Notes: generated by a model from the sequence alone, not told the origin. A stretch of 64,000 bases of DNA from an uncultured Pelagibacteraceae bacterium (GCA_902560565.1 CACEMG010000001.1:1-64000); one strand, 5' to 3'. Counted from the first letter of the stretch, positions 2-50,766 are shown. Made by a program: numbers and translations.

Positions 2-1225
2 AATGCACCAGATAAATTAGGTTATTGGACTAATAAAAAAACTGGTGAAAAATATGGAGGGCAGTACATAAGTCCTCTTTTAATTCCTAATCTTAAAAAA
101 GTTGAGACAGGATTTAAAAAAGCAATGAAAAACAAGAAATTCTTAGCTGACCTTGAAGAACAGCTTGTTAATCATATTGGTATTGTGACACCAATTCTGA
201 GAAGTAAAGAACTTGAGGAAATAGCTGGAGGAGAGAAAAAAATAGGAAAAATTTTTCTTAAAAGAACTGATCTTCATCATGACAGTTCTCATAAACCTGT
301 AAGTGCTTTTAGTTCAGTTTTTTTTGCTAAACATATTCTTAAAGCCAAGAAAATAATTACTGAAACCGGTGCCTCTATGAACGCTAGAGCTGTTGCCTCA
401 GCATGTGCCAAACTAAATCTTGCTTGCGAAGTACACATCGGTGCACTCGATGCGGAAAAGGTTTCCTTAAATAAAGATATAACTGAACTTTACGGTGCAG
501 ATATTAAAGTATGTCACGATTCTACAAAGTCGCTTTTGCCAGCGATGGCCGCAGCTCTTCGTAGTTGGCAAAGTGACCCTACCGCAATGTACGTTGTAGG
601 TTCAGTATGTGGGCCTCACCCATATCCATTAATGGTTAGAACTTTTGCAAGTATAATTGGTAGAATTGCAAAAAAACAAATGAAAGATCTAATAGGTAAA
701 TCACCTTCAACTGTATTTGCAGTATGTGGAGGAGGATCGAATTTATCAGCAATAAGCTATCCTTTTTACAATGAGAGAAATGTTGATATTTTTGGAATAG
801 AGTCGGCTGGAAAGGGAATTGCATCAGGAGCTCACGCGGCAACAATAACAAGTAAAGCTCCTATTGGAATTTTATTAGGTGCACGATCAAACGTTTTAAT
901 GGACGCAGACGGTCAAGTAGACCCTTCTGAAACAGAAGCCAGTGGGCTTGACTTCAGTGGAACAGGACCAGAAATATGTTACATGGCAAGTACAGGCAGA
1001 ATAAAATTTAGAGCAACAACTGATAAAGAAGCGCAAGAAACTTTTTTAATAATGTGTAAGAAAACAGGTATACTTCCAGCTATTGAAGCATGTTATGTAA
1101 TACATGCTGCAATTAAAGAAATAAAAAGAAGAAAAAACCCAAGAGAAAATCATTTAATTCACCTTTGCGGATCTGGTGAGTCTAATGTTGGAAGAATGCT
1201 AAAATATAAACGAAATAATGAATAA
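2..1225 (+). CDS. trpB: Divergent tryptophan synthase beta chain-like protein (TrpB-like), 5' truncated by window
   Basis: The reading frame is open from base 2, so the true start lies upstream of the window; the track's Met at 125 is internal. The scaffold is a fold-type II PLP enzyme of the TrpB family: HK with the presumed Schiff-base lysine (K57 in track numbering), a retained E in ETGAS (E80), the phosphate loop GGGSN (202-206) and GPHPYPLMVR. Several TrpB signatures are changed. The usual ETGAGQHG substrate-carboxylate loop reads ETGASMNA, HKxNN reads HKPVS, and the C-terminal LSGRGDKD reads LCGSGESN. The frame overlaps the trpA-like start by 8 nt. Position in trpB-trpA-accD-folC makes orthology by position certain; ordinary tryptophan synthase activity is not. 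It could be a neofunctionalised copy or the only, fast-evolving copy. Confidence 0.8.
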   Translation, partial: NAPDKLGYWTNKKTGEKYGGQYISPLLIPNLKKVETGFKKAMKNKKFLADLEEQLVNHIGIVTPILRSKELEEIAGGEKKIGKIFLKRTDLHHDSSHKPVSAFSSVFFAKHILKAKKIITETGASMNARAVASACAKLNLACEVHIGALDAEKVSLNKDITELYGADIKVCHDSTKSLLPAMAAALRSWQSDPTAMYVVGSVCGPHPYPLMVRTFASIIGRIAKKQMKDLIGKSPSTVFAVCGGGSNLSAISYPFYNERNVDIFGIESAGKGIASGAHAATITSKAPIGILLGARSNVLMDADGQVDPSETEASGLDFSGTGPEICYMASTGRIKFRATTDKEAQETFLIMCKKTGILPAIEACYVIHAAIKEIKRRKNPRENHLIHLCGSGESNVGRMLKYKRNNE

Positions 1226-2039
1226 AACTTTTGAAAAAATATTTGCGAAAGCAAAGTCAGAAAATAGGTCTTGTTTTGTTGCTTTTGTTACAGGTATGGA
1301 TCCAGACTATGAAAGCTCCAAACAAATTTTGATAGAATTATCAAAATATTGTGACTGTATTGAAATAGGGGTAAGTTTCAATACGAGCACATCAGATTCA
1401 TCCATCATTATGGGTGCTAATGACCGTGCGATAAAATCTGGGGCTAAAACAAAAAAAATTTTTAAACTCATTAAACAGGTTAAAAAAAATATTGAAAGTG
1501 ATACTGCATTTGTGACTATGGGATATTTAAATCAGATCCATGTATATGGAATTGATAGATATATAAATGATTGTAAAAAAAGTGGTGTTGATGGATGTAT
1601 AGTGGTTGATAGTAACAATGAAGCACCTGAGGACGATAAAATTTTTAAAGGACTTACTAATAATAATATGGCTTTTATAAAATTAATTGCTCCAACAAAT
1701 GATAGTAATTATATAAAACAAAGTTTGAAAAAGAGTTCATCTTGGTTGTACATTGTTTCTTACGCTGGAGTTACAGGATCAAAAAAGGTAAATATAAACA
1801 ATGTAAAAAAATTGACCAAATTGATAAGGAAACAATCAAAAATTCCTATAGGAGTTGGTTTTGGCATTAAAAATTATAATGATGTTAAAAATGTTTCGAA
1901 ACTTGCTGATCTAGTCGTATGTGGAAGCTCGATTGTAGAGAAAATTAAAGAAGGAAACAAAAAAGGATTAACAAATCAAAATTTAGCCCAATTTGTTGGT
2001 AAATATGTTAAAAGATTATCACAAGGAGTAAAACATTGA
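1218..2039 (+). CDS. trpA: Divergent tryptophan synthase alpha chain-like protein (TrpA-like)
   Basis: TIM-barrel protein of normal TrpA length (273 aa). TrpA cleaves indole-3-glycerol phosphate and channels indole to TrpB. The two catalytic acids fall at the same numbers as in the enteric enzyme, E49 in IEIG and D60, and the phosphate-site motifs GVTGS, GFGI and GSSIV are kept. The normally near-invariant PFSDPLADGP segment around D60 instead reads SFNTSTSDSS, and the DLPxEE segment reads DSNNEA. This pattern suggests a barrel still binding a phosphorylated ligand but with a remodelled active-site loop. ATG overlaps the end of the trpB-like gene and the stop overlaps the accD-like TTG start (TTGA), so the genes are translationally coupled. 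Family call is firm; activity is uncertain. Confidence 0.8.
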   Translation: MNKTFEKIFAKAKSENRSCFVAFVTGMDPDYESSKQILIELSKYCDCIEIGVSFNTSTSDSSIIMGANDRAIKSGAKTKKIFKLIKQVKKNIESDTAFVTMGYLNQIHVYGIDRYINDCKKSGVDGCIVVDSNNEAPEDDKIFKGLTNNNMAFIKLIAPTNDSNYIKQSLKKSSSWLYIVSYAGVTGSKKVNINNVKKLTKLIRKQSKIPIGVGFGIKNYNDVKNVSKLADLVVCGSSIVEKIKEGNKKGLTNQNLAQFVGKYVKRLSQGVKH

Positions 2040-2980
2040 ACTGGATAACCCGATTTATATCTATTGGTGACAAGATAAAGAAATTTTTAAAAAAAAGACC
2101 TACTGTTGAAGAACTCGAACACAGCTCTTGGGCTCCATTAAATTGTTGCAACAGTGGCCCCCTTCAAAAGTCTGAATTAGACAATAATATGTATGTATGT
2201 CCGAGATGTAATTTTCATCATCCAATTGACCCTGTAACGCGTTTTAATTATACGTTTGGTGAGAATAATTGGGAGGAAATTAAACCAAATTATAATTATC
2301 CAGACGATCCCCTTAAATTTGTAGATACAAAAAAATACACAGCACGTCTTAAAGAAGCAAGAAAAAAGACTAAACAAGATTGTGCGGCAATGTCATGTGT
2401 AGGAAAATTAAATGGTATCGAAATAGTTATGACTGCAATGAACTTTTCGTTTATGGGATCATCTATCGCTCAAAATGAGACTAATAATATTTTAACTGCT
2501 GTAAATTCAGCAATTGAAAGAAAATGTTCTTACGTATTTGCCAGCGCCTCGGGGGGCATGAGAATGCAAGAAGCAGGTCTTTCATTAATGTGCATGCCGA
2601 AGCTAACTATTGCAATCAACGAACTTAAAAAAAATAAGCTCCCTTTTATAAATTTATACTGTTCGCCTGCAACTGCAGGAGGAACTCAGGCAAGTATAAG
2701 CTCTCTCTCAGACCTTGCCATAGCAGAAAAAAATGTAACCATAGCCTTCAGTGGTCGTAGAGTTATTGAGGCAACTGTTCGTGAAAAGTTAGATGAAAAT
2801 ATACAAAAATCAGGGTGGGTTTTAGAAAAAGGATTTTTAGATTTAGAATTAGAAAGAAAGGAAATTTCTTCTGTAATATATAATTTATTATCAATCTTGC
2901 TTAACAACAATTCTGAGGTAAATTCTACTTCAGAAAATGAAACTCCAGAAAATAATAAATCGCTTTCAAAAACTGCATAA
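2036..2980 (+). CDS. accD: Divergent acetyl-CoA carboxylase carboxyltransferase beta subunit-like protein (AccD-like)
   Basis: Crotonase-fold carboxyltransferase beta chain, 314 aa, TTG start in a 4-nt overlap with the trpA-like gene. AccD with AccA transfers carboxyl from biotin to acetyl-CoA. The N-terminal zinc ribbon is altered: the first CxxC is replaced by CC (37-38) while the second pair CPRC (55-58) is intact. FMGGSMGSVVGE reads FMGSSIAQNETN, SGGARMQE reads SGGMRMQE, and GGVSASFA reads GGTQASIS. REKL and the E-K-G near the C terminus are conserved. The C-terminal tail is rich in Ser, Asn and Glu. AccD is normally essential, so either this copy tolerates the changes or a standard accD exists elsewhere. 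The gene overlaps the folC-like gene by 44 nt. Confidence 0.75.
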   Translation: MNWITRFISIGDKIKKFLKKRPTVEELEHSSWAPLNCCNSGPLQKSELDNNMYVCPRCNFHHPIDPVTRFNYTFGENNWEEIKPNYNYPDDPLKFVDTKKYTARLKEARKKTKQDCAAMSCVGKLNGIEIVMTAMNFSFMGSSIAQNETNNILTAVNSAIERKCSYVFASASGGMRMQEAGLSLMCMPKLTIAINELKKNKLPFINLYCSPATAGGTQASISSLSDLAIAEKNVTIAFSGRRVIEATVREKLDENIQKSGWVLEKGFLDLELERKEISSVIYNLLSILLNNNSEVNSTSENETPENNKSLSKTA

Positions 2981-4202
2981 ACGCGAAATTGATTTAAAAT
3001 TAGATAGAATCAAGTCCCTTTGTCAAAGACTTGGAAATCCTCAAGATAAGATTAAAGCTATAACTGTTGTTGGAACAAATGGTAAATTTTCGACTATAGC
3101 TGGAATGTTTTCTATACTGAAAGAATCTAATATTAATTGTAATGTTTTCTCAAGCCCACATATTTTAAAAATTAATGAACGATTTATATTTAATAATGAA
3201 GAATTGAAAGATGATGAGCTTGCTGAACTTTTTGAAGAGGTTGAAAAAATTAATGATAACCAAACTATAACTCTGTTCGAAATTTTAGCTGCCTGCTTCT
3301 TCTATAAAGCAGCACAATACCCAGATAATATAAATCTAATCGAGGCTGGTTTATTTCATAGATTCGACGCATCAAATGTTCTAAAAGAAAATCTTGCTAG
3401 TGTTTGCTGTGCTATTTCAAGAGATCATGAGGATTGGTTGCCAGAAAATGATAGAACTGTTGAAAGAATAATCTTTGAGAAAACCTCGTCTCTTTTAAAT
3501 TCAAATATCATTGTTGCTAAACAAAGAGATAAAAAAACAATGGAGTGTATTAAAAAAACTATATCAAACAACCAATCAAATAAGTACTATTTTGGGAAAG
3601 ATTTTAGTTATTCAATTGGTAAAAATAATTCATTTTACTATAAGGATAAATTTGGTGAATTAGACCTACCAATGCCTAATGTTTTAGGTGAATATCAACT
3701 AGAAAATATTTCAACGGCTATTGCAACTCTAAGAAATTTAAATTTAGTAGTTAATGATGATCATATTAAAAGAGGTATTACTAAAATAAAAAATATTGCT
3801 AGACTTCAGGAAATTAGCTCAGGTAGATTGAAAAATTTAGTTAAAAACAATAAACTTATTATTGATGGTTCTCACAATGAGCATGGCGCACAAGTTTTAA
3901 ATCAATATCTTCAAACACTTGGTTGCAACAAACACATAATATGTGGGATGATGTGTAATAAAAATCATAAAAAATATATTAGTTATTTTAAAGATATAAG
4001 TTCGATGACTGTAATAGATATACCTGGCAATCCGAATGCAATAAAGGGTAAAGATTTAAAAGAAAAATTCAAAGATATTTCTAATGTAACTTATAAAGAA
4101 AATATAGAAACTGCAATTAAATCTCTACCTATTAAGAAAAATGATATCGTAGTTATCACTGGAAGTTTATACTTAGCTTCTGAAATGCTTAAACTTAATT
4201 AA
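2937..4202 (+). CDS. folC: Divergent folylpolyglutamate/dihydrofolate synthase-like protein (FolC-like, Mur ligase superfamily)
   Basis: FolC adds Glu to dihydropteroate or folate using ATP. The start at 2937 is chosen because the typical N-terminal LHKREIDLKLDRI segment must be included; this gives a 44-nt overlap with accD. Family landmarks are SSPHILKINERF, TLFEILAA, EAGL (E136), DHEDWL, the EK with the modifiable lysine (K182), DGSHN and ITGSLYLA. Key glycine positions are changed. The P-loop GTNGKGS reads GTNGKFS (46-52), the GLGGRLDATN loop reads GLFHRFDASN, DHxxxLG reads DHEDWLP, and HNP reads HNE. A bulky Phe in the ATP loop is unusual for a Mur-type ligase. Family placement is sure; normal FolC function is doubtful. 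Confidence 0.75.
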   Translation: MKLQKIINRFQKLHKREIDLKLDRIKSLCQRLGNPQDKIKAITVVGTNGKFSTIAGMFSILKESNINCNVFSSPHILKINERFIFNNEELKDDELAELFEEVEKINDNQTITLFEILAACFFYKAAQYPDNINLIEAGLFHRFDASNVLKENLASVCCAISRDHEDWLPENDRTVERIIFEKTSSLLNSNIIVAKQRDKKTMECIKKTISNNQSNKYYFGKDFSYSIGKNNSFYYKDKFGELDLPMPNVLGEYQLENISTAIATLRNLNLVVNDDHIKRGITKIKNIARLQEISSGRLKNLVKNNKLIIDGSHNEHGAQVLNQYLQTLGCNKHIICGMMCNKNHKKYISYFKDISSMTVIDIPGNPNAIKGKDLKEKFKDISNVTYKENIETAIKSLPIKKNDIVVITGSLYLASEMLKLN

Positions 4203-4516
4203 GCACTATGTTCTGTAAGCCAAGCTCGTAAATTCTGCTCTGAGTCTCCACCAACTTTTCGACTAGTTTCAACACCTTTACGGTAAATAACAATTGTGGG
4301 AACGCCACGAATTGCGGCATGTGATGCTGTGTTAATGGCATCTTCATCAATGTCTGCGTAAAAAAATTTCATATTTTTAAATTCGTGGGAAAGTTTTTCC
4401 ATTATTGGTTTTTGAGCACGGCACGGTGCGCACCAGCTAGCTGAAAATTGTATTATAGAAATTTCCTCATTTGCTACTTTGGTTTCGAAATCAGAATCTT
4501 TAAAACTAATAAGCAT
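4199..4516 (-). CDS. trxA: Thioredoxin
   Basis: Short thioredoxin-fold protein (105 aa) with the redox motif WCAPC in place of the common WCGPC, followed by the typical GVPTIVIYRKG cis-Pro region. It would reduce cytoplasmic protein disulfides. It sits tail-to-tail with the folC-like gene, overlapping by 4 nt, which is the position seen in related genomes. No signal peptide is visible. Gly to Ala in the active site is a mild change found in some thioredoxins and should shift redox potential only modestly. Confidence 0.9.
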   Translation of the reverse strand: MLISFKDSDFETKVANEEISIIQFSASWCAPCRAQKPIMEKLSHEFKNMKFFYADIDEDAINTASHAAIRGVPTIVIYRKGVETSRKVGGDSEQNLRAWLTEHSA

Positions 4517-4618
4517 AAGATTTTTTAAATAATTAGTTAATAATTGTCAATTTATCATTTTGTACATTTCAACAATTATAAAACTATTATTTTCCTAATA
4601 TTGTATTATTATAAATTT

Positions 4619-5383
4619 ATGGATAAAGATTACCCGTGGTCATTTAAATATTTTCCAAATAGTAAAAATCCCTTTATAATCAGTAGATCAAAAATAGATT
4701 TATTCTTAAGGTGTAAAAGATGTGCATATCTTGACATGCGTCTAGGCATTAAGGGTCCAAAACCATTTCCATACAATTTAAACTCGAGAATTGATACACT
4801 GCTGAAAAATGAATTTGATGTTGCAAGAGACAAAAAAGAACAGACGATTTATCAAAAAAAAGCAGGCATAAGTTCTATTCCTTATTATCATCCAGAACTT
4901 CATATATGGCGCGAACCCTTTAAAGCGGCAAGATTTCATCACCAAGAAACTAATATTACAGTTTGTGGGTCAGTTGATGATTTATGGCAAGATACAAATA
5001 GTAAAAAAATATCAGTGGTAGATTATAAATCAACTTTTAATGAAAATTTTGAGAAACTCAAAAAATTTGATGCACCGTATCTTATTGGATATAAACGGCA
5101 AGCAGAAATATATTTATGGATTTTATCAAATTTAGGTTTAGATATGAATACAACAAGTTATTTTTTTTATGTTAATGCAAAAAAAGAGCAAGCAATATTT
5201 GAAAATAAACTGGAATTTGAATGGGCAATTATTCCTTACCGTACTGAAGATTACAAATGGGTAGATAAGACTATAATTGATATTAAAAATCTTTTGGAAA
5301 CAAATAAAATACCTGCTTCAACAGCAGAATGTGATTTATGTAAATATATGAGTAAATTTTTTGATTTTATTAAAAAAAAATAA
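4619..5383 (+). CDS. PD-(D/E)XK superfamily nuclease (RecB/AddB-C-terminus or Cas4-like)
   Basis: The track start at 4544 includes a hydrophobic leader that looks like upstream DNA; ATG at 4619 (MDKDYPWSF) fits better and gives 254 aa. The protein carries an SRSKIDLFLRCKRCAYLD N-terminal segment typical of RecB-like nucleases. It also has the catalytic series GSVDDLW then VVDYKS (D...D-x-K), a QAEIYLWIL helix (the Q-x3-Y motif) and a late CDLC pair. The cysteines resemble, but do not complete, a four-Cys iron-sulfur site: C56 and C59 region plus the C-terminal CDLC could be the four ligands. It ends 3 nt from the convergent nuclease-helicase gene. A DNA repair or end-processing role is inferred. 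Confidence 0.75.
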   Translation: MDKDYPWSFKYFPNSKNPFIISRSKIDLFLRCKRCAYLDMRLGIKGPKPFPYNLNSRIDTLLKNEFDVARDKKEQTIYQKKAGISSIPYYHPELHIWREPFKAARFHHQETNITVCGSVDDLWQDTNSKKISVVDYKSTFNENFEKLKKFDAPYLIGYKRQAEIYLWILSNLGLDMNTTSYFFYVNAKKEQAIFENKLEFEWAIIPYRTEDYKWVDKTIIDIKNLLETNKIPASTAECDLCKYMSKFFDFIKKK

Positions 5384-5385
5384 AA

Positions 5386-8300
5386 TCAATTTATTTTATA
5401 TTTTTGTAGTTTATAAAAATTATTAAGCATTTTCATTTCTTCATAGTCAGCAGGAGCAGTGTCTAATAGTCTTGGATTAAATAATATAATTGATGCGGAC
5501 TGGGCTCGACTGATCGCAACATTCAAGCGGTTACGATTAAAAAAAAATGATTTATGTCTAGGAAGATTTTCTGTATCTGATGAAGTCATACTAATAATAG
5601 TAATAGGCGCCTCTTGTCCTTGAAATTTATCAATTGTCCCACATTTTGTACCTTTTTCTAAACGTGATAAAAGATAATTAACTTGGGCATTATAAGGGCT
5701 TATAATTAAGAAGTCTGATAGTTCTAACTTCCTGGTTTTGCCATTAAATGTAAATTTTGACCCAACAAGTTGTTTCATTAATTTGTCTATAACTTTATAT
5801 TCTTCTAAACATGTTTGAGACCTCTCTTGATGATCCATTGCAATAAAATGTATTCCTTCAGATTTAATTAAGCTATTACTACTAAAATCAATTTGTCTTT
5901 GACAAGTAATTTCATCTGTCAGTAATCTACCATCATAAAATGATTCTGAAATAAAAGAGTTTATTTTGGGATGGAGTCTGAAAGTTCGATCTAACAAAAT
6001 TCCTTTTTCTGGAGCAATAGTATTTTGCTCACATAATAAATAATCAAGTACACTTTGTCCTGATTGACCAGGATGATTACCTTGAATGGGTTGGCCTAAT
6101 TGCATCTGATCTCCAACAAGAATAATATTTTTCGCAATTCCACCTAAAGCAATTAAATCTGCTAAACTAATTTGTCCTGCTTCATCAATAATTAGATAGT
6201 CAAATTTATTATAACAATAACCTCTTGAAAGATGGAATTTTGTTCCAGCATATACAGATGTTGAATTATCGTTTATCGCATTAATCCAAATTTTGTCGTT
6301 ATTATTAGTTTTAATAAACTTTCCATCATAATAACTATAATCATTCTTGTCCGATTTGCCGGCTTTAATTCCTTTAAAAGATATGTTTTTTTTATTAGCT
6401 AGAACTTCTATTCTATCAAGAAGATTATGGATAACTGGATGGGAATTTGCAGTAATTGCTATTTTTTTTTTCTTCTTTATTAATTCAAGTATTGTAGCTG
6501 CACAGGTGGAGGACTTGCCTGTGCCAGGGGGACCCTGAAGATATAAATAACTATTTTTCAGATTTGATATAATATTTGGTATTTCTAAATAAAAATTATT
6601 AGTTTTTATAATATTATCACCTTTTTTAATACCATTGATCGAAGGAAGATCTCTGTTTAAAAAACTTATTAAGGCTTGATAGTTTTTTTTATTTTCTAAA
6701 ATACTATCGATAAATTTATAAATGTTATTATTTAAATTTTTGAAAATGTCATTAGACATTATTTGATTAGCAATAGATAGTGTATTTGGAAGTTGAGGTG
6801 AGTCAATTGTGGTTTTTTTTTTTAATTTTATTGTTTTATTAATTTGATCTAAAAAAACAATTGTTCCGGCATAATCTTTTATTTTATCAGAGTTGATGTT
6901 ATTCGCAATTACAACCCTATCGTTCTTTCGAAACTTATATTCCTGATCACTAAAAATATAAGTGTAAATAACAGACTGTTTTTCTGGATGAGAAGAAACA
7001 AGTTTCATATTTCCAATACAATTTTTATCTTCAATTAATTCCTCATCTGAAAAATCTCGTCTATCAAAATGTTCTCGCCATTCTGGTTTTTGTTCCCTGT
7101 TATAAAAACCTACAATATCCAACATTAATTTAGGAATATTATTATTTTTAATTTTTGAATTTTCTATTTTATTTCTATATTCAATAATTTTCTCCTCAAA
7201 AGGACGAGTTTCAATTTCTTCTTTATCGGGAATAAACCATGAAGTACCCTCTGGTTTTATATCTAATAACCATTCTCTTAATTTGAAAGTAGAATGACAA
7301 TCTTCTTTATTATAATATTCGATTTCATCTAATAATTTTTGCTTTTTTGTTTCCACCCACTCAATATAAAATTCCTCAGACTGTTCACCTTTTTTAACGT
7401 CTCCAGTCCTTTCAAATTTATAAAATTTTTCCAAAGCCTTTATAGAATAACTATTTTCTGAGATAAGAATTGCCTGTTTAGCAACTCTGAATAAATCAAC
7501 AAATTTATTTAAATGTAAATAGTGATCATACTCGACATGCTTAACTTTATGTAAAGATGTTAATCTTTCTAAGGCATTTACTTCATATGCTGCGTAATGA
7601 TAAATTTTAGAATCTGGGTACTTTTTAAAATGATTTTTTGTAAAATCAAAAAATTTTATTAAGTTTTTTTTCTCATCTTCTTTATTGTGGGCCCAAAGAG
7701 GTAAATAATTTTGCTTTCCATTTTCCTCGTAATAAATACCAAATAGATATTCCAATTTTTCATCATAAGCCCACATTGAGCTTTCGAGATCAAAAAATAA
7801 ATCACATTGTGAAGGTTTTGGTAATAAATTAAAACCTTTCCTAATAAATAAATTTTCCTTTACAGTTTTAAATATTGGTTTACCAGTTTTTTCATATTCT
7901 ATTTGTAATTTAGCCTGTTCAATTCTTTTATTTTTTATTACATCTCTTAAACCCTCAATTTTTGTTTTAGGATTCAATTTTGCTAATTGATCTATTGTTT
8001 TAATACCACTTTTATTAAATCTTTTAATGTTTATTTTATTATTTCCACCGACTTGATTTAGGTGCCTTTTTTTTTTCCATTCTTTTTCACACACTTCAGA
8101 CCAATCACAAAATGCACAAAAAGAACATTTTTCAGGTTTTGTTTTGTCTATTTCATTTTTAAGAAATTGTTCATATTTTTCTTTGTGGGAATTAAATACA
8201 TCATAAATCTGATTTAGCTTTACTTTTTGCTTAGTCCCATCCTTTAATAAAATATATAAATTTTCTGAAGCTACTCCTTGAGATTTTTTTAAAAGATCAA

Positions 8301-8751
8301 AATAGATTCCCACTTGATAGATATGATCACCTCGAATTTTCTTTGAGTTCTTTGTATCTATCACTTCATAAAAATAGTCTCCAAAGTTCGATTTTTTGCT
8401 TTTATTAATTTCAAGAAAATCAGCTTCTCCACTCCATTTGCCATCAGAAAGCCAACCACCATAAATAATCTCATATCCTTGTTCCATGGCATTTAGAGTT
8501 TCTTTAAATTTATCTACATTTTTTAGTTTCTTTATATTTTTAATCTTTGAATATTTTTTTTTTAACTTTTCAAAATATTTTGCTTCGTGAATATTCCCTT
8601 TATCAAATCTTAATTGATCAATATTGGAATGAGGTTTTCTTTTAAGTTTAAGATGATTTTCATTTTTTTCATTAAATATAATATACCCGCAGCTTAAATA
8701 CTTTTTAAGCATGGACGGAGAAAAAAAATTTTTTTCTCTTAATTGTGCCAT
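5386..8751 (-). CDS. TM0106-type RecB-like nuclease / RNase H-like / superfamily 1 helicase fusion
   Basis: A 1121-aa multidomain protein. The N-terminal RecB-like nuclease region starts FSPSMLKKYLSC, has GEADFLEI and VIDTKN acidic/lysine motifs, and then a cysteine cluster CSFCAFCDWSEVC. The middle region resembles the YprB-type RNase H fold (FFDLESSMW ... YYNKEDCHST). The C-terminal half is a UPF1/DNA2-like SF1 helicase with Walker A GPPGTGKSS, Walker B YLIIDEAGQ, GDQMQLGQP, DRTFRLHP, DKFQGQE and NVAISRA. This order matches the TM0106 family of putative nuclease-helicases. Substrate is unknown; a role in DNA repair or RNA-DNA processing is inferred. All helicase motifs look intact. Confidence 0.85.
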   Translation of the reverse strand: MAQLREKNFFSPSMLKKYLSCGYIIFNEKNENHLKLKRKPHSNIDQLRFDKGNIHEAKYFEKLKKKYSKIKNIKKLKNVDKFKETLNAMEQGYEIIYGGWLSDGKWSGEADFLEINKSKKSNFGDYFYEVIDTKNSKKIRGDHIYQVGIYFDLLKKSQGVASENLYILLKDGTKQKVKLNQIYDVFNSHKEKYEQFLKNEIDKTKPEKCSFCAFCDWSEVCEKEWKKKRHLNQVGGNNKINIKRFNKSGIKTIDQLAKLNPKTKIEGLRDVIKNKRIEQAKLQIEYEKTGKPIFKTVKENLFIRKGFNLLPKPSQCDLFFDLESSMWAYDEKLEYLFGIYYEENGKQNYLPLWAHNKEDEKKNLIKFFDFTKNHFKKYPDSKIYHYAAYEVNALERLTSLHKVKHVEYDHYLHLNKFVDLFRVAKQAILISENSYSIKALEKFYKFERTGDVKKGEQSEEFYIEWVETKKQKLLDEIEYYNKEDCHSTFKLREWLLDIKPEGTSWFIPDKEEIETRPFEEKIIEYRNKIENSKIKNNNIPKLMLDIVGFYNREQKPEWREHFDRRDFSDEELIEDKNCIGNMKLVSSHPEKQSVIYTYIFSDQEYKFRKNDRVVIANNINSDKIKDYAGTIVFLDQINKTIKLKKKTTIDSPQLPNTLSIANQIMSNDIFKNLNNNIYKFIDSILENKKNYQALISFLNRDLPSINGIKKGDNIIKTNNFYLEIPNIISNLKNSYLYLQGPPGTGKSSTCAATILELIKKKKKIAITANSHPVIHNLLDRIEVLANKKNISFKGIKAGKSDKNDYSYYDGKFIKTNNNDKIWINAINDNSTSVYAGTKFHLSRGYCYNKFDYLIIDEAGQISLADLIALGGIAKNIILVGDQMQLGQPIQGNHPGQSGQSVLDYLLCEQNTIAPEKGILLDRTFRLHPKINSFISESFYDGRLLTDEITCQRQIDFSSNSLIKSEGIHFIAMDHQERSQTCLEEYKVIDKLMKQLVGSKFTFNGKTRKLELSDFLIISPYNAQVNYLLSRLEKGTKCGTIDKFQGQEAPITIISMTSSDTENLPRHKSFFFNRNRLNVAISRAQSASIILFNPRLLDTAPADYEEMKMLNNFYKLQKYKIN

Positions 8752-8763
8752 ATAATACTTGAT

Positions 8764-9369
8764 TTAATCTCTTTTAATAAGTTTATCTTGTTGTGAAGAT
8801 CTTTTTGAGTCTAAAACACTTGCTACCAATTTTCTATTACAGGATACATTTAATAGTTCAGCTACTTTTTTTGCAATTGATGTTTTTGAATGACATTTGT
8901 TTTTTTTTTCAGTTTGAATTTCTTTAATTTTCTTAATATCGAGTTTTTTCTCTTTTGCATCTTTTATTCTTTTATCATAATCAGCAGCAGATGGGATCGA
9001 GTCAAATATTTCTAAAATTTTATCCTTTTTTTTCTTTAAAATTTTTCTTCCCAAAATCGAATTATTATTATTTTTTAAAGAATCAATAATTTTTTGTATC
9101 TGAGATACTGTTGGCTGTTTATAAGCATATGGTGTTGCTCCAAATTTACCTTCTCGTTTAATTTTAACCATTGAAATTCCATTGTTATTACAAAATCTTG
9201 CTAGATTATCATCTCTTTCAAAATCAATTTTTTTCGTATTTAAATAATCTATAAACTCTTCAGATGTTAAATATCCTGAAGGAATTTCTTCATGTAAATA
9301 ACCTTTTAATTTACCTTTTTCTGACTTCAGCTTTAGATTATATGGGTTTTTTTCTCTTTTGCTTATCAT
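8764..9369 (-). CDS. Unrecognised lysine-rich protein
   Basis: I do not recognise this 201-aa protein. It is basic and Lys-rich, with a predicted mostly helical middle and no membrane segment. The N-terminal half includes LTSEEFIDYLN and ATPYAYKQPTVSQIQKII, which could be a small DNA-binding module. The C-terminal part, SIAKKVAELLNVSCNRKLVASVLD, has the spacing of a helix-turn-helix. Its ATG overlaps the rmuC stop by 4 nt, so it is co-translated with rmuC and lies 12 nt before the nuclease-helicase gene. Nucleic-acid binding is a guess from charge and context. Confidence 0.6.
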   Translation of the reverse strand: MISKREKNPYNLKLKSEKGKLKGYLHEEIPSGYLTSEEFIDYLNTKKIDFERDDNLARFCNNNGISMVKIKREGKFGATPYAYKQPTVSQIQKIIDSLKNNNNSILGRKILKKKKDKILEIFDSIPSAADYDKRIKDAKEKKLDIKKIKEIQTEKKNKCHSKTSIAKKVAELLNVSCNRKLVASVLDSKRSSQQDKLIKRD

Positions 9370-10508
9370 TCTTTTATATTAACAATTTTTGGTTTCTCAG
9401 GATCTTCAACATAATCCAAGTTTACATCATTTTCAGTAGTATTTGGTAATTCTTTTGTTTGTCCTAAACCTCCAGTTTTTTTTAGTTTTACTAACTTATC
9501 TTCTAATGATTGATTTGAACCATAAGCTGCATTTATTACTTGCTTAAGAGAATTTGTGTGCGCTTTATGACTATCAATTGTCTTTTTTAAATTTTTTTTC
9601 AAAAAAGTGTATTTGTCATAAATTGCCGTTGCTTCCTTTACAATTTTGGAAACTAAAGATTTATTTTTTTTCTCATTTTTAATGCTTGTAGCAGTTGCAA
9701 TTAAACTCATAATACTAATAGGACCAGCAAGAAGTATTTTTTTTTCATAACACAAATCCAATAAGCTACTATTTTCTTTTTCGAGCACTGAAAGATAACA
9801 GGCGTCAAATGGCATAAACATAACAACATATTGCATGTTTTCAAGTTGGTAAAGTTTTGAATAATTTTTAAATCCAAGGTCAGTTATATGTTTTTTCACA
9901 GACTCTATATGTTTGTTTAGATTTTCTTCTCTCATATCTTTATCTTTTGAATTAACAAAGTCCTCAAAATTTTTAAGGGAAACTTTGCAATCGATAACAA
10001 TTTTTTGATTATCTTGAAGGTTTAATATAAAATCAGGTTTTATTATTTTTTCTTCCCCTGTTTCAGGATCAGAAATTTTTTTTTCCTTTCCTACATCAAA
10101 ATCTCCATCCTCTTCTTTTAGTCCGTGTCTTTCTAAAATATTTCTTAAAGTTCTTTCATTAAATTTTCCTTGATATTTAACATCACCAACTAATTTTTCA
10201 TGAAAATTTTTATATTCTGAAATAACAGATTTATATTCTGAAAATGATCTATTGCTTATTTCTTTAAATGTATCTACGTCATTTTTATTACTTATGAGCT
10301 GTTCTTTATCTTTTTTTAATTCTTTAATATAATTTTCTACTAAGTCTGTTTTATCTATTTGTTTATCTAGTTCATTCTGAAGTTTTAAATATTCCGGATT
10401 ATTTTTATCAATATTTTTAGAACTTTTAATTTGATTTAGTATATATAAAAACAAAAAAACAATTGTTACGCTTAATATGAGAACTGTAATTGATAAAGTT
10501 GCTATCAT
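9366..10508 (-). CDS. rmuC: RmuC family DNA recombination protein
   Basis: Begins with one hydrophobic segment (residues about 3-27), then a long coiled-coil rich in Lys and Glu, then the RmuC core. The core carries KPDFILNL, VIDCKVSLKNFEDF, YVVMFMPFDACYLS and ILLAGPISIMSLI. The acidic/Lys residues form a PD-(D/E)XK-like restriction-fold core. RmuC limits inversions and rearrangements at short inverted repeats in E. coli. It is the best understood member of this accessory block and fits its DNA-processing theme. Length 380 aa is normal to slightly short. The downstream gene overlaps its end by 4 nt. Confidence 0.88.
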   Translation of the reverse strand: MIATLSITVLILSVTIVFLFLYILNQIKSSKNIDKNNPEYLKLQNELDKQIDKTDLVENYIKELKKDKEQLISNKNDVDTFKEISNRSFSEYKSVISEYKNFHEKLVGDVKYQGKFNERTLRNILERHGLKEEDGDFDVGKEKKISDPETGEEKIIKPDFILNLQDNQKIVIDCKVSLKNFEDFVNSKDKDMREENLNKHIESVKKHITDLGFKNYSKLYQLENMQYVVMFMPFDACYLSVLEKENSSLLDLCYEKKILLAGPISIMSLIATATSIKNEKKNKSLVSKIVKEATAIYDKYTFLKKNLKKTIDSHKAHTNSLKQVINAAYGSNQSLEDKLVKLKKTGGLGQTKELPNTTENDVNLDYVEDPEKPKIVNIKE

Positions 10509-10522
10509 ACCTATATAATATA

Positions 10523-12112
10523 TTAATTTATTAATTTACTCCACTCTTTAGAATATTTTTGAATTGATTTATTATTTTCAATACATTTTTCTAATAAAAC
10601 TGTAAGACAGTCACTGAAACTTCTATCACCATCATAACCACCAAGACAATGGGACAATTCATGAAGCGCTACAGAGCAGAAGACACTAAATTTTTGTTTG
10701 AATAAAGACTTATGTAAATAAATTACTTTATGGTTATAATCATATTTATCCTTCATTTGCCCAAGTAGTTCCTTGCATGTTATAGTTTTAAATTTCACAT
10801 CGTACATAGGATCATCATGTCCATCAGCTACGAATAATTTAGCAAAACCAGGTGAAATACTTTTGACTGCTTCAAATAAAAAATCGATCGATTTTTGTTC
10901 TTTATATGTCAAATTTTTTGTTTTTTTGTTCTTAATCCTAGATTCGCTATTTTTTTTATTTCGAATGAAACTTTCAAGTGCACTCATTACTCCAAAATTA
11001 GTAAAATACGACGGGAGAATAATTTTTTTTTTCTTTTCCTTGTTTGTCCTGTTACGAATGTAATTTTGGACACCTGTGTTAAACCACTCATTATAAGTAA
11101 TTTCTCGAGAATAGGTATATCTAGACTCTGCAAAGTAATCATTTCCAAATAATTCTTTTAAATTTTTGTCGTCTTTTAACCATCCATAAGAATTAGTAGC
11201 TATAGCACTTAAAAGTAAATGCCCCTTTTCCCAAATTTTTTTACTCGATTTTAAAATATATTTTATAGCCACATTTCCAACCATATCTCTATAATAAAAA
11301 CCACTACGAGCTAGTATTGAAAAGAATGTTGCTTGAAGTTTAGAATCAAAAGCTTTTCGGTCACGGTCCATGCGAACCTTCTTATCAAGTGCAGCATATG
11401 ACTTGTTAATGTGTATAATTACAGGGATCCCAATGATATCTATCCTTCTCAAATTCTTATAAAAACCCACCCCGTTTGGCTCAGTTGATTTAAATATGCT
11501 TATTCCATTATGGTCATGTAAAATTTCACCTATTATTTTATTACCACTATAAAAAAAATTTTTCATTCCATACTGGTAAGCTTTCTTTAGTTTTTTACTT
11601 ATAGTTTTTATTATAAAATAATTACCTTTAAGTTTGTTTATTTTGAAATAGTTATAGATTAATGGACGCAATCCATCGGTATTCGGAATTTCATTTCCTA
11701 CTGATACGATAAGAGCTTTGTTGCCAGAAATTAATATAGGATTAAAGACACCCATTCTAGCAAGATCTGAAAACACTTTCTTACCACCTTCCCCATGGGA
11801 GCCACAGAATTGTACTTCTGATTCAGATTTAGTAGATCCAATATAATAAAGCTTTTCTAAGTTAAATTCATTAGGAGCGTAAATTCTTACAGTATCACTT
11901 TCGATAGAAATTTTAATATCTGTTATTGGCAGCTTGTTTTCCAAGCAGCCATCATAAAAATTTTGCAGCGTATCTCTAGCAATCATATCTTCAGTCCATA
12001 TTTCTTCAGACCAACTTGTAGTGATTGCAGATGGAACTGATTTTAAGTGCTCTGTTGAAGTAATTTCAGGTACTTCTAAAAGCAAGTCTTTAAATTTTTT
12101 TATATCATTCAT
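10523..12112 (-). CDS. GHKL-like ATPase fused to an HExxH metallopeptidase-like domain
   Basis: A 529-aa protein. The N-terminal part has features of a GHKL ATPase: RDTLQNFYDG resembles the N box, and GSHGEGGKK followed by VFSDLARMG resembles the glycine-rich ATP-lid motif. A clear DxGxG box is not visible. The C-terminal end contains ALHELSHCLGGYDGD, a zinc peptidase-type HExxH (484-488) followed by further acidic residues that could supply a third ligand. The two parts in one chain suggest an ATP-gated protease or peptidase-controlled machine. I know no named family with certainty. It lies between rmuC and a set of small genes, all on the minus strand, with short spacing. Confidence 0.6.
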   Translation of the reverse strand: MNDIKKFKDLLLEVPEITSTEHLKSVPSAITTSWSEEIWTEDMIARDTLQNFYDGCLENKLPITDIKISIESDTVRIYAPNEFNLEKLYYIGSTKSESEVQFCGSHGEGGKKVFSDLARMGVFNPILISGNKALIVSVGNEIPNTDGLRPLIYNYFKINKLKGNYFIIKTISKKLKKAYQYGMKNFFYSGNKIIGEILHDHNGISIFKSTEPNGVGFYKNLRRIDIIGIPVIIHINKSYAALDKKVRMDRDRKAFDSKLQATFFSILARSGFYYRDMVGNVAIKYILKSSKKIWEKGHLLLSAIATNSYGWLKDDKNLKELFGNDYFAESRYTYSREITYNEWFNTGVQNYIRNRTNKEKKKKIILPSYFTNFGVMSALESFIRNKKNSESRIKNKKTKNLTYKEQKSIDFLFEAVKSISPGFAKLFVADGHDDPMYDVKFKTITCKELLGQMKDKYDYNHKVIYLHKSLFKQKFSVFCSVALHELSHCLGGYDGDRSFSDCLTVLLEKCIENNKSIQKYSKEWSKLIN

Positions 12113-12120
12113 TTTTCCCT

Positions 12121-12411
12121 CTATATTTTATTATTAGTAATTTCATCTTTTAATTCTTCTTTAAGAACATCTATATTTATTAATACTCTATGATATATAT
12201 GTTGGGCTCTTTTTTTCTTTAAATATTTATAAAGATTAAGAGGTATAAAATAAAAGTTTATAATTAATCCAAAAAATTTTTTATTTTCATAAAATCTGAT
12301 TTTAGCCTTTTCGTTTATTTCTTGATGCTTAAACCAATCCTGAAAATCTGATTTCCACTCGAGATAATATTCTAGACGTTGTTTCAATAAATTTTGGTAA
12401 TTCTTTTTCAT
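12121..12411 (-). CDS. Small unrecognised protein
   Basis: Hypothetical protein of 96 aa, basic, with aromatic-rich NH2-terminal part (YYLEWKSDFQDWF) and a short hydrophobic stretch FFGLIINFYFIPLNLY that may associate with membrane or form a buried helix. No family recognised. It lies 8 nt before the ATPase-peptidase gene and 3 nt after the WGR gene, so it belongs to the same minus-strand transcription unit. The tight spacing and lack of a competing frame support a real gene. Confidence 0.5.
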   Translation of the reverse strand: MKKNYQNLLKQRLEYYLEWKSDFQDWFKHQEINEKAKIRFYENKKFFGLIINFYFIPLNLYKYLKKKRAQHIYHRVLINIDVLKEELKDEITNNKI

Positions 12412-12414
12412 ATT

Positions 12415-12645
12415 TTATTTTATCTCCACGTATCCTTTACCAATTTTTTCTCTTATTTTTTTTTCAGCATATTTTTTTGCAGCTTCCTCTGAACTAAATT
12501 GATTTTCCTTTTCTGCTGGGTTATGAATACCAATACGTCCGTATTTTGTTATAACCTTTTTTTTTGCATCAATTTTAATTTCCCAGAATTTAAACGAATT
12601 TTTAATGTGGTTTTTATATTCTAGTCTCATTTTATTTCCTTTCAT
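12415..12645 (-). CDS. WGR domain protein
   Basis: A single small domain, 76 aa. The pattern FWEIKIDAKKKVITKYGRIG, then SSEEAAKKYAEKKIREKIGKGY, is that of the WGR domain found alone or fused to PARP and to MolR-like proteins; the central WGR is YGR here. WGR domains are thought to bind nucleic acid, for example DNA ends in PARP. Initiation could also be at MRLEYK (residue 6). It sits directly between two hypothetical genes in the minus-strand set. Bacterial stand-alone WGR proteins often occur in accessory or defence-like regions. Confidence 0.75.
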   Translation of the reverse strand: MKGNKMRLEYKNHIKNSFKFWEIKIDAKKKVITKYGRIGIHNPAEKENQFSSEEAAKKYAEKKIREKIGKGYVEIK

Positions 12646-13062
12646 TTAGTGTAGCGTTTTATCTTTAATTTTTTTTTTTCTTCCAAAAAGATCTTCTTCA
12701 TCAGCTTGATTACTAGTCCATTCATCTAAAGAATTCATAAAATCCTTATTGTGCTGTAGAAGTTGATTCTTTGTAAAAGTTGTATAGTATTTGAACTTTG
12801 GATAAGACATTTCTAGCATTAAAGATTGCATTACTCGGTAATAGAAAATGTAAAAACACTCATCTTTATCTAGAGCTTCTTTTGCAGCCTTTTGTTTAAA
12901 GGCATCAACTAAATTTTTTGCAAAAATATCTATTCTTTCCCAGATTTCATTCCTCGTCTCTATTTTCTGCTCTTTCAAAGATTTAGTTTTAAAAGGAACA
13001 ATATTCGTTTTTTTTGAACTTTTTCCTTTCAAAGGTTTTTTTTTGTCTTTTTCCTTGCTCAT
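12646..13062 (-). CDS. Unrecognised charged protein, first gene of the minus-strand accessory unit
   Basis: A 138-aa protein with a very basic N-terminal tail (KKPLKGKSSKKTN), a helical middle and a mixed-charge C-terminal tail with DLFGRKKK. No motif recognised. It is the first gene of the minus-strand unit that runs through the WGR protein and the ATPase-peptidase to rmuC, and it faces away from the 409-aa gene across a roughly 105-bp AT-rich promoter region. Because it leads the unit, a regulatory or structural role is possible, but nothing in the sequence proves it. Confidence 0.5.
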   Translation of the reverse strand: MSKEKDKKKPLKGKSSKKTNIVPFKTKSLKEQKIETRNEIWERIDIFAKNLVDAFKQKAAKEALDKDECFYIFYYRVMQSLMLEMSYPKFKYYTTFTKNQLLQHNKDFMNSLDEWTSNQADEEDLFGRKKKIKDKTLH

Positions 13063-13167
13063 AAGGTTTTAATAACAAATATATTTTGCTGTGTCAAGAC
13101 TGTATTTATAAATATTTTTGTATTGATTCATTATATTTATACTGTATATATATAAAGAGTAAATAAT
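13063..13167. promoter_or_regulatory. Divergent promoter region of the accessory block
   Basis: A 105-bp AT-rich spacer between two divergently transcribed genes. On the plus strand TTGATT (13123-13128) is followed 16-18 nt later by TATATA (within 13145-13152), a plausible sigma70-type promoter for the 409-aa gene at 13168. A minus-strand promoter for the 138-aa gene must lie here too but I cannot fix it. Several near-repeats of TTATAAATAT/TTATATTTAT might be operators. Confidence 0.35.
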
Positions 13168-14397
13168 ATGATTCGAAAAAAAAGTAACAAAATAAGTAAG
13201 CCAGGTGCAATTTTATGGGAATTACTTAGTGAATCTGGGATTTCCCAGGCCATAGCTTCGAAAAATATGGGGCAATATGAAAATTATTTAACCAATTATA
13301 TCTACAAATATAAAGAAAACATATTCCCAAGGTCATTTTGTTATAATTTTTTGTCGTCGGTTTATCACTCAATAAAAAGGGATAAAATTAATAAGAACCA
13401 ATCTTTCATATCAATATTAAGTAGGGTAATTAATAAAAATTTAGATGTAATAAAAATTTTAATCCTCCCTGCTCTTGATCATCATATTGCAGCGTTGCTT
13501 AAATTAGAAAATATTGATTTTATTGAAACCTCAAATTTATTAGAAAGATATATTGCTGAAGTAGTCACTAAAGAAAAATATAACGAGTATAAATCATTTT
13601 TAAGTGAGATGGATAGTGAAGACGAGGGTTTTGATAATCTAAATAATATTCGTTTGAAAGGAGACCCAATTCTGGATGAAGAACGATTTAAAAAAAATAT
13701 TGAATTTGAAAATTTAGTAAAATCAATCAAAGATTTCTATTATCTATGTGAGCAACTTACATTAATCTTCGTTCCAAATTTTTATTCACCAACAAACTAT
13801 CAAAAAATAAAAATGGACAAAGTTAGCAAAGGAACTTTTTTAGTGAAAAAAAGATTTATCAAACAATTGAAACGATCGAATAAAATTGGTGGAGAGTTTA
13901 GCTGGAATTCTGGAAAATTTTCTTTTAGTGAAAATTCTGGTAATAATTATGAAACTTCAGAATTTTTATCAAAAGATGAATCTAAAAAAATTAAAATTAA
14001 AGAAAATCTTTCTGGATTGCCCTTTGTGGATATTCCTTTAACAAAGGAACAAAAAAAAGAAATAGATGATGTAATGGCTAAAGGAGGTAAAACATCATTA
14101 TTAAATGTAGATGAATTAGTTAATAAGTATCGAGGTTCATATTACTTGGAACTAGCTTTCAAAAATAATCCATATATGAAAAAACTTGGAATAGAAGATG
14201 TTTCAGGAGTTTTTGAAGAAGCTAGGCTTATTGCATTGAATAAAAAGCTAAATTATTTTTTAGGTTCAAACAAGCAACATGATTCTCTTTGGGATACTAG
14301 AGCAACTGCAGAGAAAATTTCTAAAGAGGAGTCTTCCGTTAGCCTATTTGATGATTTAATTTTCCCTAAGATTAAAGAAGGGAAAAAAATAGCGTAA
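13168..14397 (+). CDS. Unrecognised 409-aa protein with possible N-terminal HTH and an ExoIII-like C-terminal motif
   Basis: No family recognised. Residues around 15-45 (ELLSESGISQAIASKNMGQYENYL) have the look of a helix-turn-helix of the repressor type, which would suit its place next to a divergent promoter. The middle is helical and acidic. Near the C terminus is HDSLWDTRAT, the same ten residues found in the ExoIII motif of the next gene, encoded by an identical 27-bp stretch. The rest of an exonuclease domain is absent here, so this short tract is probably a copied fragment. A regulator of the block is possible; the function is unknown. Confidence 0.55.
   Translation: MIRKKSNKISKPGAILWELLSESGISQAIASKNMGQYENYLTNYIYKYKENIFPRSFCYNFLSSVYHSIKRDKINKNQSFISILSRVINKNLDVIKILILPALDHHIAALLKLENIDFIETSNLLERYIAEVVTKEKYNEYKSFLSEMDSEDEGFDNLNNIRLKGDPILDEERFKKNIEFENLVKSIKDFYYLCEQLTLIFVPNFYSPTNYQKIKMDKVSKGTFLVKKRFIKQLKRSNKIGGEFSWNSGKFSFSENSGNNYETSEFLSKDESKKIKIKENLSGLPFVDIPLTKEQKKEIDDVMAKGGKTSLLNVDELVNKYRGSYYLELAFKNNPYMKKLGIEDVSGVFEEARLIALNKKLNYFLGSNKQHDSLWDTRATAEKISKEESSVSLFDDLIFPKIKEGKKIA
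14281..14307 (+). repeat. Copy 1 of a 27-bp identical coding repeat
   Basis: GATTCTCTTTGGGATACTAG plus seven more bases match 14940-14966 exactly. Both copies are read in the same frame and, with the preceding His codon (CAT here, CAC there), encode HDSLWDTRAT. Flanks differ on both sides. Confidence 0.9.
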
Positions 14398-14420
14398 CTT
14401 TTTTTAAATAATCAAATAAT

Positions 14421-15875
14421 ATGAAAAAAACTTTTACATTCTATGACATGGAAGCTGATAGTGGATCAGCAATAAAAGCTACCTGCTTAAGTTGTAGTTA
14501 TGTAACTGTAGACTCAAATTTCAAAACTATTGAAGAAGGTACATTTAATTCAAGATTAAGAAAATCTAGGGCTTTCGAAGTTGATGCTATGCTTGCCCAT
14601 TCAATCCCATTAAAAAAGATTCAAAGTGAAAAATTATCTAATGGAGAGCTAGTAGAAAAGCTAGAAGCCAAATTTATTGAACTTGCAAAAAAAGGAACAA
14701 TTTTTGTTGGATACAATTCAAGTGGGTATGATCAAATTCTTTTAAATCATATGTTACATTTAAATTTAAAGTGGCCCTATATAACAAGTAAAGAACAGTT
14801 TGATTTGCTACCAGCAGTCAGAACTGCATCTGTGTTTGAGCCAAAGGCATTAAATTATTTAACTAATTTTAAAGGAAACACTTCATACAAATTGCAGGAC
14901 ATGATCAAAGCAAATAATATAAAATCAGAAATAGCTCACGATTCTCTTTGGGATACTAGAGCAACTAAGGATCTTGGCCACCTTTTGTATAAAAATGCTC
15001 CAGAAGTATTTAATGCTTCAATTGCATTAAGAAAGAAGGAGGATGTGATATCCCGAATAAAAGATGATATATTTTGCTGGAATGAATTCTTTTTTGCGCG
15101 TGCCAAAATTTTTTGTGGTTGTTATATAGGAAGCACCATTTATCCTAATTGGCATTACCTTTTTGATTTGCGCCAATCACCTGAGGAAATTATCTCAATA
15201 ATGAATAATAGAGAAGAATTGAAAAAAAAAGTTGAAAGTAGTCCCCGATTTATAAGAATTTGTAAAGGGAATCGCTCTCCAATTATTATGAAAAAAGAAA
15301 ATGCATTTAAAAATGATGAGGAATATAAAACTTTAGGAATTAAAGAAATTGAAAGAAGATATTATTTTTTAAGAAAACACCGAGAAGAATTGTCAGTAAG
15401 ATTAAGAGATCTAGCTAATGAAAAAATAGAGGAAAAAAATCAGTTTGAACAAGAAAAGAAACAACCTGAAGAAAATTTATATGGATTGAAAATTAGTAAT
15501 GACGAGAGAAAAATAATGCTAAATTTTAATCAAGCAAAAGAAATTTCAGACAAAAAGAAGGAGTTTATGCAATTTAAACATCAAGATATAAAACTGCTTG
15601 CTGAAATGAAACTGTATGAAGATTTATCTGAAGATGATTTTTGTAAAGTTCTCTCTAAAAAAGATTTAAATAAAGTAAAAAGTAGGATTGCGAACTATTT
15701 GTTAGATAAATCAAATAAAAGTCTTCCATTTACTAAAATTCCTGAGCAGTTAGCAAGATTGGATACGCTTAAACTTAATGCTGAAAATGATAAAGACGAT
15801 AATAAAGCAAAACAATTACAAGACTTGGATGATTATTTGGTTGGTAAGATGAATGAGTTTGAAAAATATTTATAA
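14421..15875 (+). CDS. sbcB: Exonuclease I-like DEDD exonuclease (SbcB family)
   Basis: A 484-aa protein with the DnaQ-fold exonuclease motifs in order. ExoI is FYDMEAD (D and E), ExoII is GYNSSGYDQ, and ExoIII is AHDSLWDTRAT with the catalytic His and Asp. A further region, FIRICKGNRSPIIM with downstream LGI, parallels the SH3-like and helical parts of E. coli exonuclease I. ExoI degrades single-stranded DNA 3' to 5'. The length is close to that of the family (about 475 aa), and the active site looks complete. It is downstream of the 409-aa gene by 23 nt and likely cotranscribed. The C-terminal third is charged and diverged. Confidence 0.8.
   Translation: MKKTFTFYDMEADSGSAIKATCLSCSYVTVDSNFKTIEEGTFNSRLRKSRAFEVDAMLAHSIPLKKIQSEKLSNGELVEKLEAKFIELAKKGTIFVGYNSSGYDQILLNHMLHLNLKWPYITSKEQFDLLPAVRTASVFEPKALNYLTNFKGNTSYKLQDMIKANNIKSEIAHDSLWDTRATKDLGHLLYKNAPEVFNASIALRKKEDVISRIKDDIFCWNEFFFARAKIFCGCYIGSTIYPNWHYLFDLRQSPEEIISIMNNREELKKKVESSPRFIRICKGNRSPIIMKKENAFKNDEEYKTLGIKEIERRYYFLRKHREELSVRLRDLANEKIEEKNQFEQEKKQPEENLYGLKISNDERKIMLNFNQAKEISDKKKEFMQFKHQDIKLLAEMKLYEDLSEDDFCKVLSKKDLNKVKSRIANYLLDKSNKSLPFTKIPEQLARLDTLKLNAENDKDDNKAKQLQDLDDYLVGKMNEFEKYL
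14940..14966 (+). repeat. Copy 2 of the 27-bp identical coding repeat
   Basis: Exact match to 14281-14307, here encoding the ExoIII catalytic motif of the SbcB-like exonuclease. This copy is in its expected domain context, so it is the likely donor. Confidence 0.9.
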
Positions 15876-15890
15876 AAAAAAACTTAAATT

Positions 15891-16451
15891 ATGACAAACT
15901 TGAACAAAGATAATATCAAAAAAATATTTTTTACTTATTTTCAGCCAACTTATAAAGGTAAATTAAAAGATACAAATATAATATTAAAAATTTTAAATGA
16001 ACTTCAAAAAGAACCACCGCCAACATCAACTTTAGTTATTAAAAAAATAAACTCATATACACAAAATAAAATAAAACTAAATGTTAGTAATATTAAAAGA
16101 ATAAAAAAAATTGCTCAAAAGAACGGTTTGATAAAAACTCAAAAACTAAACCGCAAGATTACAAAATCAAAAGAAAAATATTTAAAAATACTAAAAGTAA
16201 ACATATTTAACTTTCCTCCATATGCAAGGGGTGGTCAAAAAGCTGCATCTATAAATGATAGATATAGTATTGATTTTAAAAATCCAAAAGGAAAAACAAA
16301 AATACCAGAGCACTTACGTGGAGTACAATTTTACAAAACAAAAAATGATGCTAAAAAAGCAATTGAAGAAAAACAACAGTTTACAGAAATTTTTTTTAAA
16401 AAAGCAGATGAAAGATTTAAAAAAAATTTAAAAATATGGAAACTATATTAA
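15891..16451 (+). CDS. Unrecognised basic protein
   Basis: A 186-aa Lys- and Asn-rich protein, strongly basic, no membrane segment. Residues 60-110 look helical and could bind nucleic acid; the tract NFPPYARGGQKAASINDRYSI is the most distinctive part and I do not recognise it. It is the last full gene of the plus-strand accessory unit, 15 nt after the exonuclease. No homologous function can be given. Confidence 0.5.
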   Translation: MTNLNKDNIKKIFFTYFQPTYKGKLKDTNIILKILNELQKEPPPTSTLVIKKINSYTQNKIKLNVSNIKRIKKIAQKNGLIKTQKLNRKITKSKEKYLKILKVNIFNFPPYARGGQKAASINDRYSIDFKNPKGKTKIPEHLRGVQFYKTKNDAKKAIEEKQQFTEIFFKKADERFKKNLKIWKLY

Positions 16452-16552
16452 TTTTTATACTATTAATAATGGTTACTGTTTTGATATTTAAAAATTTTGA
16501 TATTTTAAAAATTATTCTTAATTATATTAAAGACTTAATGTTTGGAAAGTAA
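16436..16552 (+). CDS. Possible small single-span membrane protein
   Basis: A 38-codon frame not in the track: METILIFILLIMVTVLIF then KNFDILKII and a short basic end. The first 18 residues would make one membrane helix. It overlaps the end of the 186-aa gene by 16 nt and the end of hisG on the other strand by 18 nt. AT-rich DNA produces such hydrophobic frames by chance, so support is weak. Confidence 0.3.
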   Translation: METILIFILLIMVTVLIFKNFDILKIILNYIKDLMFGK

Positions 16553-23646: not shown

Positions 23647-23651
23647 TGAAA

Positions 23652-47752: not shown

Positions 47753-47813
47753 ATGTGAAAATAAATAATACTAATATAGCCCTAAATAAATAGTTTTTAA
47801 TTTTTATATTTTG

Positions 47814-47903: not shown

Positions 47904-47972
47904 AAATTGACATAAAGGTTTAATTTACATATTAGTTTATATTCAGTAATAAAAATATAATATAAGCAATTT

Positions 47973-49178: not shown

Positions 49179-49180
49179 TA

Positions 49181-50765: not shown

Positions 50766-50766
50766 T

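Follow-up and report, generated by a model that had tools for sequence, protein, structure and literature searches.

The stretch of DNA analysed here (the window, 64,000 nucleotides) comprises the opening 64 kb of contig 1 from an uncultured Pelagibacteraceae bacterium whose assembled genome measures 1.09 Mb at 82% completeness; the genomes most closely related to it are single-cell genomes of Pelagibacteraceae. It opens with four overlapping forward-strand genes: trpB (tryptophan synthase beta, 2..1225, its 5′-end truncated by the contig start; trpB of relatives starts about 10 codons earlier), trpA (tryptophan synthase alpha, 1218..2039), both of the allelic type that we call type A, accD (acetyl-CoA carboxylase carboxyltransferase beta, 2036..2980) and folC (folylpolyglutamate/dihydrofolate synthase, 2937..4202). 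A reverse-strand thioredoxin gene, trx (4199..4516; PF00085, WCAPC), hypervariable among relatives, follows and borders a variable island of nuclease and defence genes (4544..16451). Beyond the island the right flank, all on the reverse strand, carries hisG (16535..17227; PF01634), a hisZ-like gene with a HisRS-like domain (17227..18249; PF13393), hisS (18215..19618) and hisD (20689..21984), all hypervariable here, and then a UPF-family gene, murA and dcd (21968..24218; murA and dcd named from protein sequence), where identity to relatives starts to recover. Elsewhere in the window, a histone-deacetylase-like gene (31535–32505) appears as two open reading frames (122 and 179 aa) in place of the single 309-aa frame of G012, possibly due to a frameshift or sequencing error; and glycosyltransferase-, methyltransferase- and aminotransferase-like genes surround a tRNA-Ser (47814–47903) between gyrB and lepA (45786–50828), possibly another variable patch.

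The island encodes PD-(D/E)XK/Cas4-like, RecB-like nuclease-helicase, RmuC-like and SbcB-like exonuclease proteins, and is about 12 kb long in the window and 3.4–35 kb among relatives. Six stretches (8764–9369, 10523–12112, 12121–12411, 12646–13062, 13168–14397 and 15891–16451) encode proteins without a known family. In one relative (G012; L098, G012:C1:1092001-1112000) the space between the trp and his flanks holds DndA-E-like DNA phosphorothioation genes, recognised by eye. Judged by gene content, the island is probably equivalent to the hypervariable region HVR3 of Wilhelm and colleagues (SAR11_1162-1173 in HTCC1062), in which an exonuclease gene, a RecB-like gene and a strain-specific insertion of 31 genes were described (PMC2217521).

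The first-pass annotation singled out the four leading genes for changed active-site motifs in intact frames, and both parts of that description hold: the genes overlap at the positions given above without internal stops, and the motifs ETGASMNA and LCGSGESN (TrpB), SFNTSTSDSS (TrpA), CC and GSSIAQNETN (AccD), and GTNGKFS and GLFHR (FolC) are present letter for letter. The changes are not attributable to chance or error, because, of the 138 positions that do not vary among 30 alphaproteobacterial TrpBs, the window differs at 58, and the same TrpB and TrpA residues recur in other genomes. One of the motifs has less meaning than was given to it: the FolC change from GTNGKGS to GTNGKFS is not diagnostic of altered function, since the sister family f2 has GTNGKFS as well, among others in a genome whose TrpB is canonical (L094). 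Nor is the unusual state confined to the four genes, as thioredoxin, hisG, hisZ, hisS, hisD, murA and dcd are likewise divergent; the genes between 16535 and 24218 are mostly 36–58% identical to those of relatives, which is as divergent as the trp operon.

The catalytic residues are kept in spite of these changes. The window TrpB retains the PLP lysine, the GGGS phosphate loop and the catalytic Glu of ETGA, with lysine and loop present in all 65 aligned SAR11 TrpBs; TrpA retains Glu49 and Asp60 (aligned to PDB 5ey5_A); and FolC retains the P-loop Lys-x-Ser and the EK lysine (aligned to PDB 1o5z). AccD has both GG motifs and four cysteines, C37, C38, C55 and C58, as putative zinc ligands, the first pair being CC rather than CxxC. 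Close relatives differ in this first pair, which is CC, CH or CxC in the zinc ribbons of AccDs from L033-L036 and L037-L040, and the CxxC of the second pair is constant. The predicted AccD structure (pLDDT 80) has a crotonase-type fold and matches E. coli AccD (2f9y_B) with a target-normalised TM of 0.92 at 36% identity in the fold comparison; the AlphaFold model of TrpB finds TrpB as its best fold match, at a mean pLDDT of 53 that is too low for active-site geometry.

Could these genes nevertheless be a duplicated, neofunctionalised operon forming a new pathway, as was first proposed? The altered family motifs speak for it, as do the scores of TrpB (314 bits against TIGR00263, cut-off 392) and AccD (234 bits against TIGR00515, cut-off 317), which fall below the curated thresholds, although TrpA (177 bits against TIGR00262, cut-off 102) and FolC (241 bits against TIGR01499, cut-off 163) lie above theirs. 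However, the TIGR00263 cut-off is unsuited to Pelagibacter, because only 4 of 20 near-complete genomes pass it and congeners with other trpB types likewise score below or near it, and the TIGR00515 cut-off is passed by only 6 of 14 control genomes. A search with the TrpB family found one trpB per genome, and no second copy, in all 13 genomes carrying or neighbouring the operon, with extra matches of only 19–34 bits, most plausibly to other PLP enzymes; exactly one trpB is present in each of 20 further Pelagibacter genomes (at least 95% complete). The same 13 genomes have one accD each and no second one, a single accA above its cut-off, and, in eight cases including the window's genome, trpC (indole-glycerol-phosphate synthase), these genomes being incomplete. 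With no standard second copies of trpB and accD found in these genomes, relatives sharing the same residues and the catalytic residues retained, a new pathway is highly improbable.

Gene order is instead the ancestral, native one (upstream gene names were read from sequence), and it agrees with that described for HTCC1062 (PMC2395257); single copies and this shared order together indicate a native operon. Type A is single-copy, under purifying selection (see below) and keeps its catalytic residues, which makes working enzymes the simplest inference. The window most likely encodes a functional tryptophan synthase, carboxyltransferase beta and folylpolyglutamate synthase, and TrpB would make tryptophan from indole and serine, to judge by its single copy, its TrpA partner and the presence of trpC. 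That trpB-trpA-accD-folC is the native single-copy locus of a Pelagibacter (SAR11) genome, encoding working enzymes, appears very probable.

The unusual TrpB belongs to one of several deeply separated types. Type A was found in 12 aligned genomes, 87–99% identical to the window, and its diagnostic residues are identical in the 11 type-A genomes whose motifs were compared. Identity between SAR11 types A, B and C is 28–35% (about 28% between A and B), against a median of 73% within a canonical cluster that joins 30 alphaproteobacterial families and one SAR11 genome; congeneric strains can thus be further apart in tryptophan synthase than entire families of related bacteria. Type B, presumed to be the HTCC1062 type, is the commonest SAR11 TrpB type in this set. 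The other Pelagibacter TrpBs examined have 45–61 of the 138 class-invariant residues changed, in a type-specific pattern, and AccD and FolC also split into types. A further TrpB type, with CHGDSHK, DTGAGMAG and VCGTLSKD, occurs in a genome of family f2 (G031; L016/L169).

Relaxed selection, with decay toward gene loss, might be suspected from so many altered class-invariant residues, but frames are intact in all genomes, the altered motifs are identical across the compared type-A genomes, and dN/dS within type A, which the first-pass annotation had suggested computing, is 0.044 for trpB and 0.060 for trpA. Type A is under strong purifying selection; the low dN/dS and intact frames contradict decay, and we give it practically no weight. 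The other first-pass suggestion, extreme lineage-specific drift, came nearer the mark, except that the ‘lineage’ is not that of a species but an allelic type with a scattered distribution among SAR11 genomes, and is strongly constrained rather than decaying. A phage origin of type A was also considered and rejected: no type-A TrpB relative was found on the viral contigs searched, and phage TrpA matches were at most 35% identical.

The divergence is centred on the island. We profiled median identity against distance from the trx–hisG island in nine f1 genomes, with G045 and G046 placed by similarity rather than by kinship label. Medians are 32–53% for trpB, trpA, accD, folC, trx, hisG, hisZ, hisS, hisD and the UPF-family gene (within-genus medians are 47% for AccD, 38% for FolC, 49–53% for thioredoxin, 46% for hisG and 48% for hisZ), mostly 57–63% at 5.5–10 kb and mostly 56–80% farther out, with an lptA/C-like gene as an outlier at 31%; baselines are 80% for gyrB, 72% for accA and 86% for the distant hisD paralog. 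The Spearman correlation of identity with distance is 0.68, with gene-specific rates not fully normalised. Ten of 12 genes within 5.5 kb of the island have medians of 53% or less, compared with 1 of 36 beyond, the limits being set post hoc and the linked genes being non-independent, such that p-values overstate certainty. Excess diversity decays on both sides of the island and haplotypes are mosaic, the pattern expected of a hitchhiking zone, and trpBA is deeper than its distance predicts. Family f2 offers a replicate: between G031 and G025 about half of the residues differ from trpF to trx, whereas rpsA and ihfB are 82–87% identical, and nuclease-like and methyltransferase-like genes, read by eye, lie beside the trp-accD-folC-trx segment.

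The his genes allow position to be separated from function. The hisS of the window genome scores below its curated cut-off, and the island-adjacent hisS and hisD copies of f1 genomes are widely spread in score and identity, yet hisS is conserved where it is located elsewhere: the f2 genes for HisS and HisD, which are not within the operon region fetched for that family, are 96% and 95% identical and have near-uniform family scores. As f2 is a closer-knit group, part of this uniformity is not positional, and a cleaner control comes from the hisD paralog of f1. In the genome that contains the window, this second HisD-like gene, conserved away from the island, lies at G000:C19:7074-8264 (L294; about 430 bits, 82–100% identical within the genus). 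The his comparison supports position rather than function as what drives his-gene divergence.

Position dependence alone would also be expected from local hypermutation without allele exchange, but the boundaries of similarity speak against it. Window and L038 DNA are 95–100% identical over trpBA (about 97%) and fall to about 57% just past the trpA/accD overlap, while identity between L031 and L038 climbs from about 60% to 95% where trpB begins; these edges coincide with the gene ends, and trpBA therefore moves as a two-gene cassette. In f1 genomes TrpA and TrpB types are always matched and accD, folC and trx types are freely reshuffled. Gene and genome relationships are uncoupled in both directions: G009 and the window share 94% identity in gyrB and only 28–30% in TrpB, and G047 and G049, at 72% and 69% in gyrB, carry TrpBs 87–88% identical to it. 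The L038 edge and the recurrence of type A in genomes of only 69–72% gyrB identity require exchange, leaving hypermutation very improbable. SAR11 recombination is reported to be unusually promiscuous, for which loss of mismatch-repair genes has been suggested as the reason (PMC12374537).

We consider it likely that, through recombination and allele exchange in a zone around the defence island, enzyme versions of ancient origin and equivalent function stay in circulation. Homologous recombination with distant SAR11 could repeatedly import the flanking genes, with or without island DNA; long-term frequency-dependent (balancing) selection on the island may maintain ancient haplotypes; and weaker purifying selection on each haplotype would let second-shell active-site residues turn over while the catalytic ones stay. 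That linked selection via the island is the driver is a tentative proposal, to which we give somewhat less than an even chance. No tight linkage was seen between trpBA type and a particular island type, and trpBA is the most divergent pair even though it is farther from the island than accD, folC and trx; island linkage alone is thus insufficient for the depth of trpBA.

How deep the trpBA split runs is what this reading chiefly fails to explain, and direct selection on the enzymes may therefore play a part, whereby phages, toxins or competitor inhibitors that target or use TrpBA, AccD, FolC or thioredoxin would favour rare versions, and old alleles would persist regardless of the island. Such direct diversifying selection would account for a trpBA divergence beyond that predicted from island distance, for a pair that moves alone as an exact two-gene cassette and for types common to deep lineages, and the antimicrobial moiramide B is known to act on AccD (PDB 5kdr). 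But the divergent genes lie on both sides of the island and share position, not function, spanning tryptophan, fatty-acid, folate, redox and histidine metabolism; hisD is hypervariable at the island and its paralog elsewhere 86% identical; and synonymous sites are saturated between types. We regard direct selection as unlikely on balance. A related proposal, an MHC-like trans-species polymorphism in SAR11 primary metabolism, in which deeply split but interchangeable versions of TrpBA, AccD, FolC and thioredoxin would be retained by frequency-dependent selection on them as phage or inhibitor targets and would travel between SAR11 lineages as cassettes, is one we hold only as a fairly doubtful candidate. 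Linked and direct selection become distinguishable, as they are testable via allele swaps.

SAR11 is an abundant ocean bacterium, and TrpB, AccD and histidyl-tRNA synthetase are normally slow-evolving. Their identity of roughly 30–50% within one genus, as opposed to the normal conservation of a his gene located elsewhere, suggests that a place on the chromosome next to a defence island can be the overriding influence on how a protein evolves. The finding also yields natural collections of strongly divergent enzymes that probably work, and cautions that curated cut-offs may mislead auxotrophy calls in SAR11.

Two elements of this picture are already known, a divergent SAR11 trpB cluster and HVR3. 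The former was described from the Sargasso Sea metagenome as a distinct cluster 64–87% identical to HTCC1062 (PMC2395257); it differs from our observations in being one cluster only, whereas identity between window type A and type B is about 28%, and the text consulted does not contain coexisting types, cassette exchange or an island-centred valley. HVR3 resembles the present locus in being a variable island that includes exonuclease and RecB-like genes, but the paper reports variable gene content (PMC2217521), and here it is the flanking essential genes that are hypervariable. In Methylophilaceae, streamlined aquatic bacteria, defence replacement islands that act in phage defence similarly occupy a conserved site, although hypervariable essential genes in their flanks are not described in the text consulted (PMC10872708). 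A literature search, with subscription journals largely outside its scope, turned up neither coexisting ancient types of essential enzymes nor their cassette edges nor the position effect. A further parallel is gnd beside the O-antigen cluster of E. coli, where diversity hitchhikes next to a hypervariable locus: in both cases core genes beside an often-exchanged island carry excess, mosaic diversity, but here the versions are about 30–50% identical, active-site surroundings are altered and deep SAR11 lineages are crossed.
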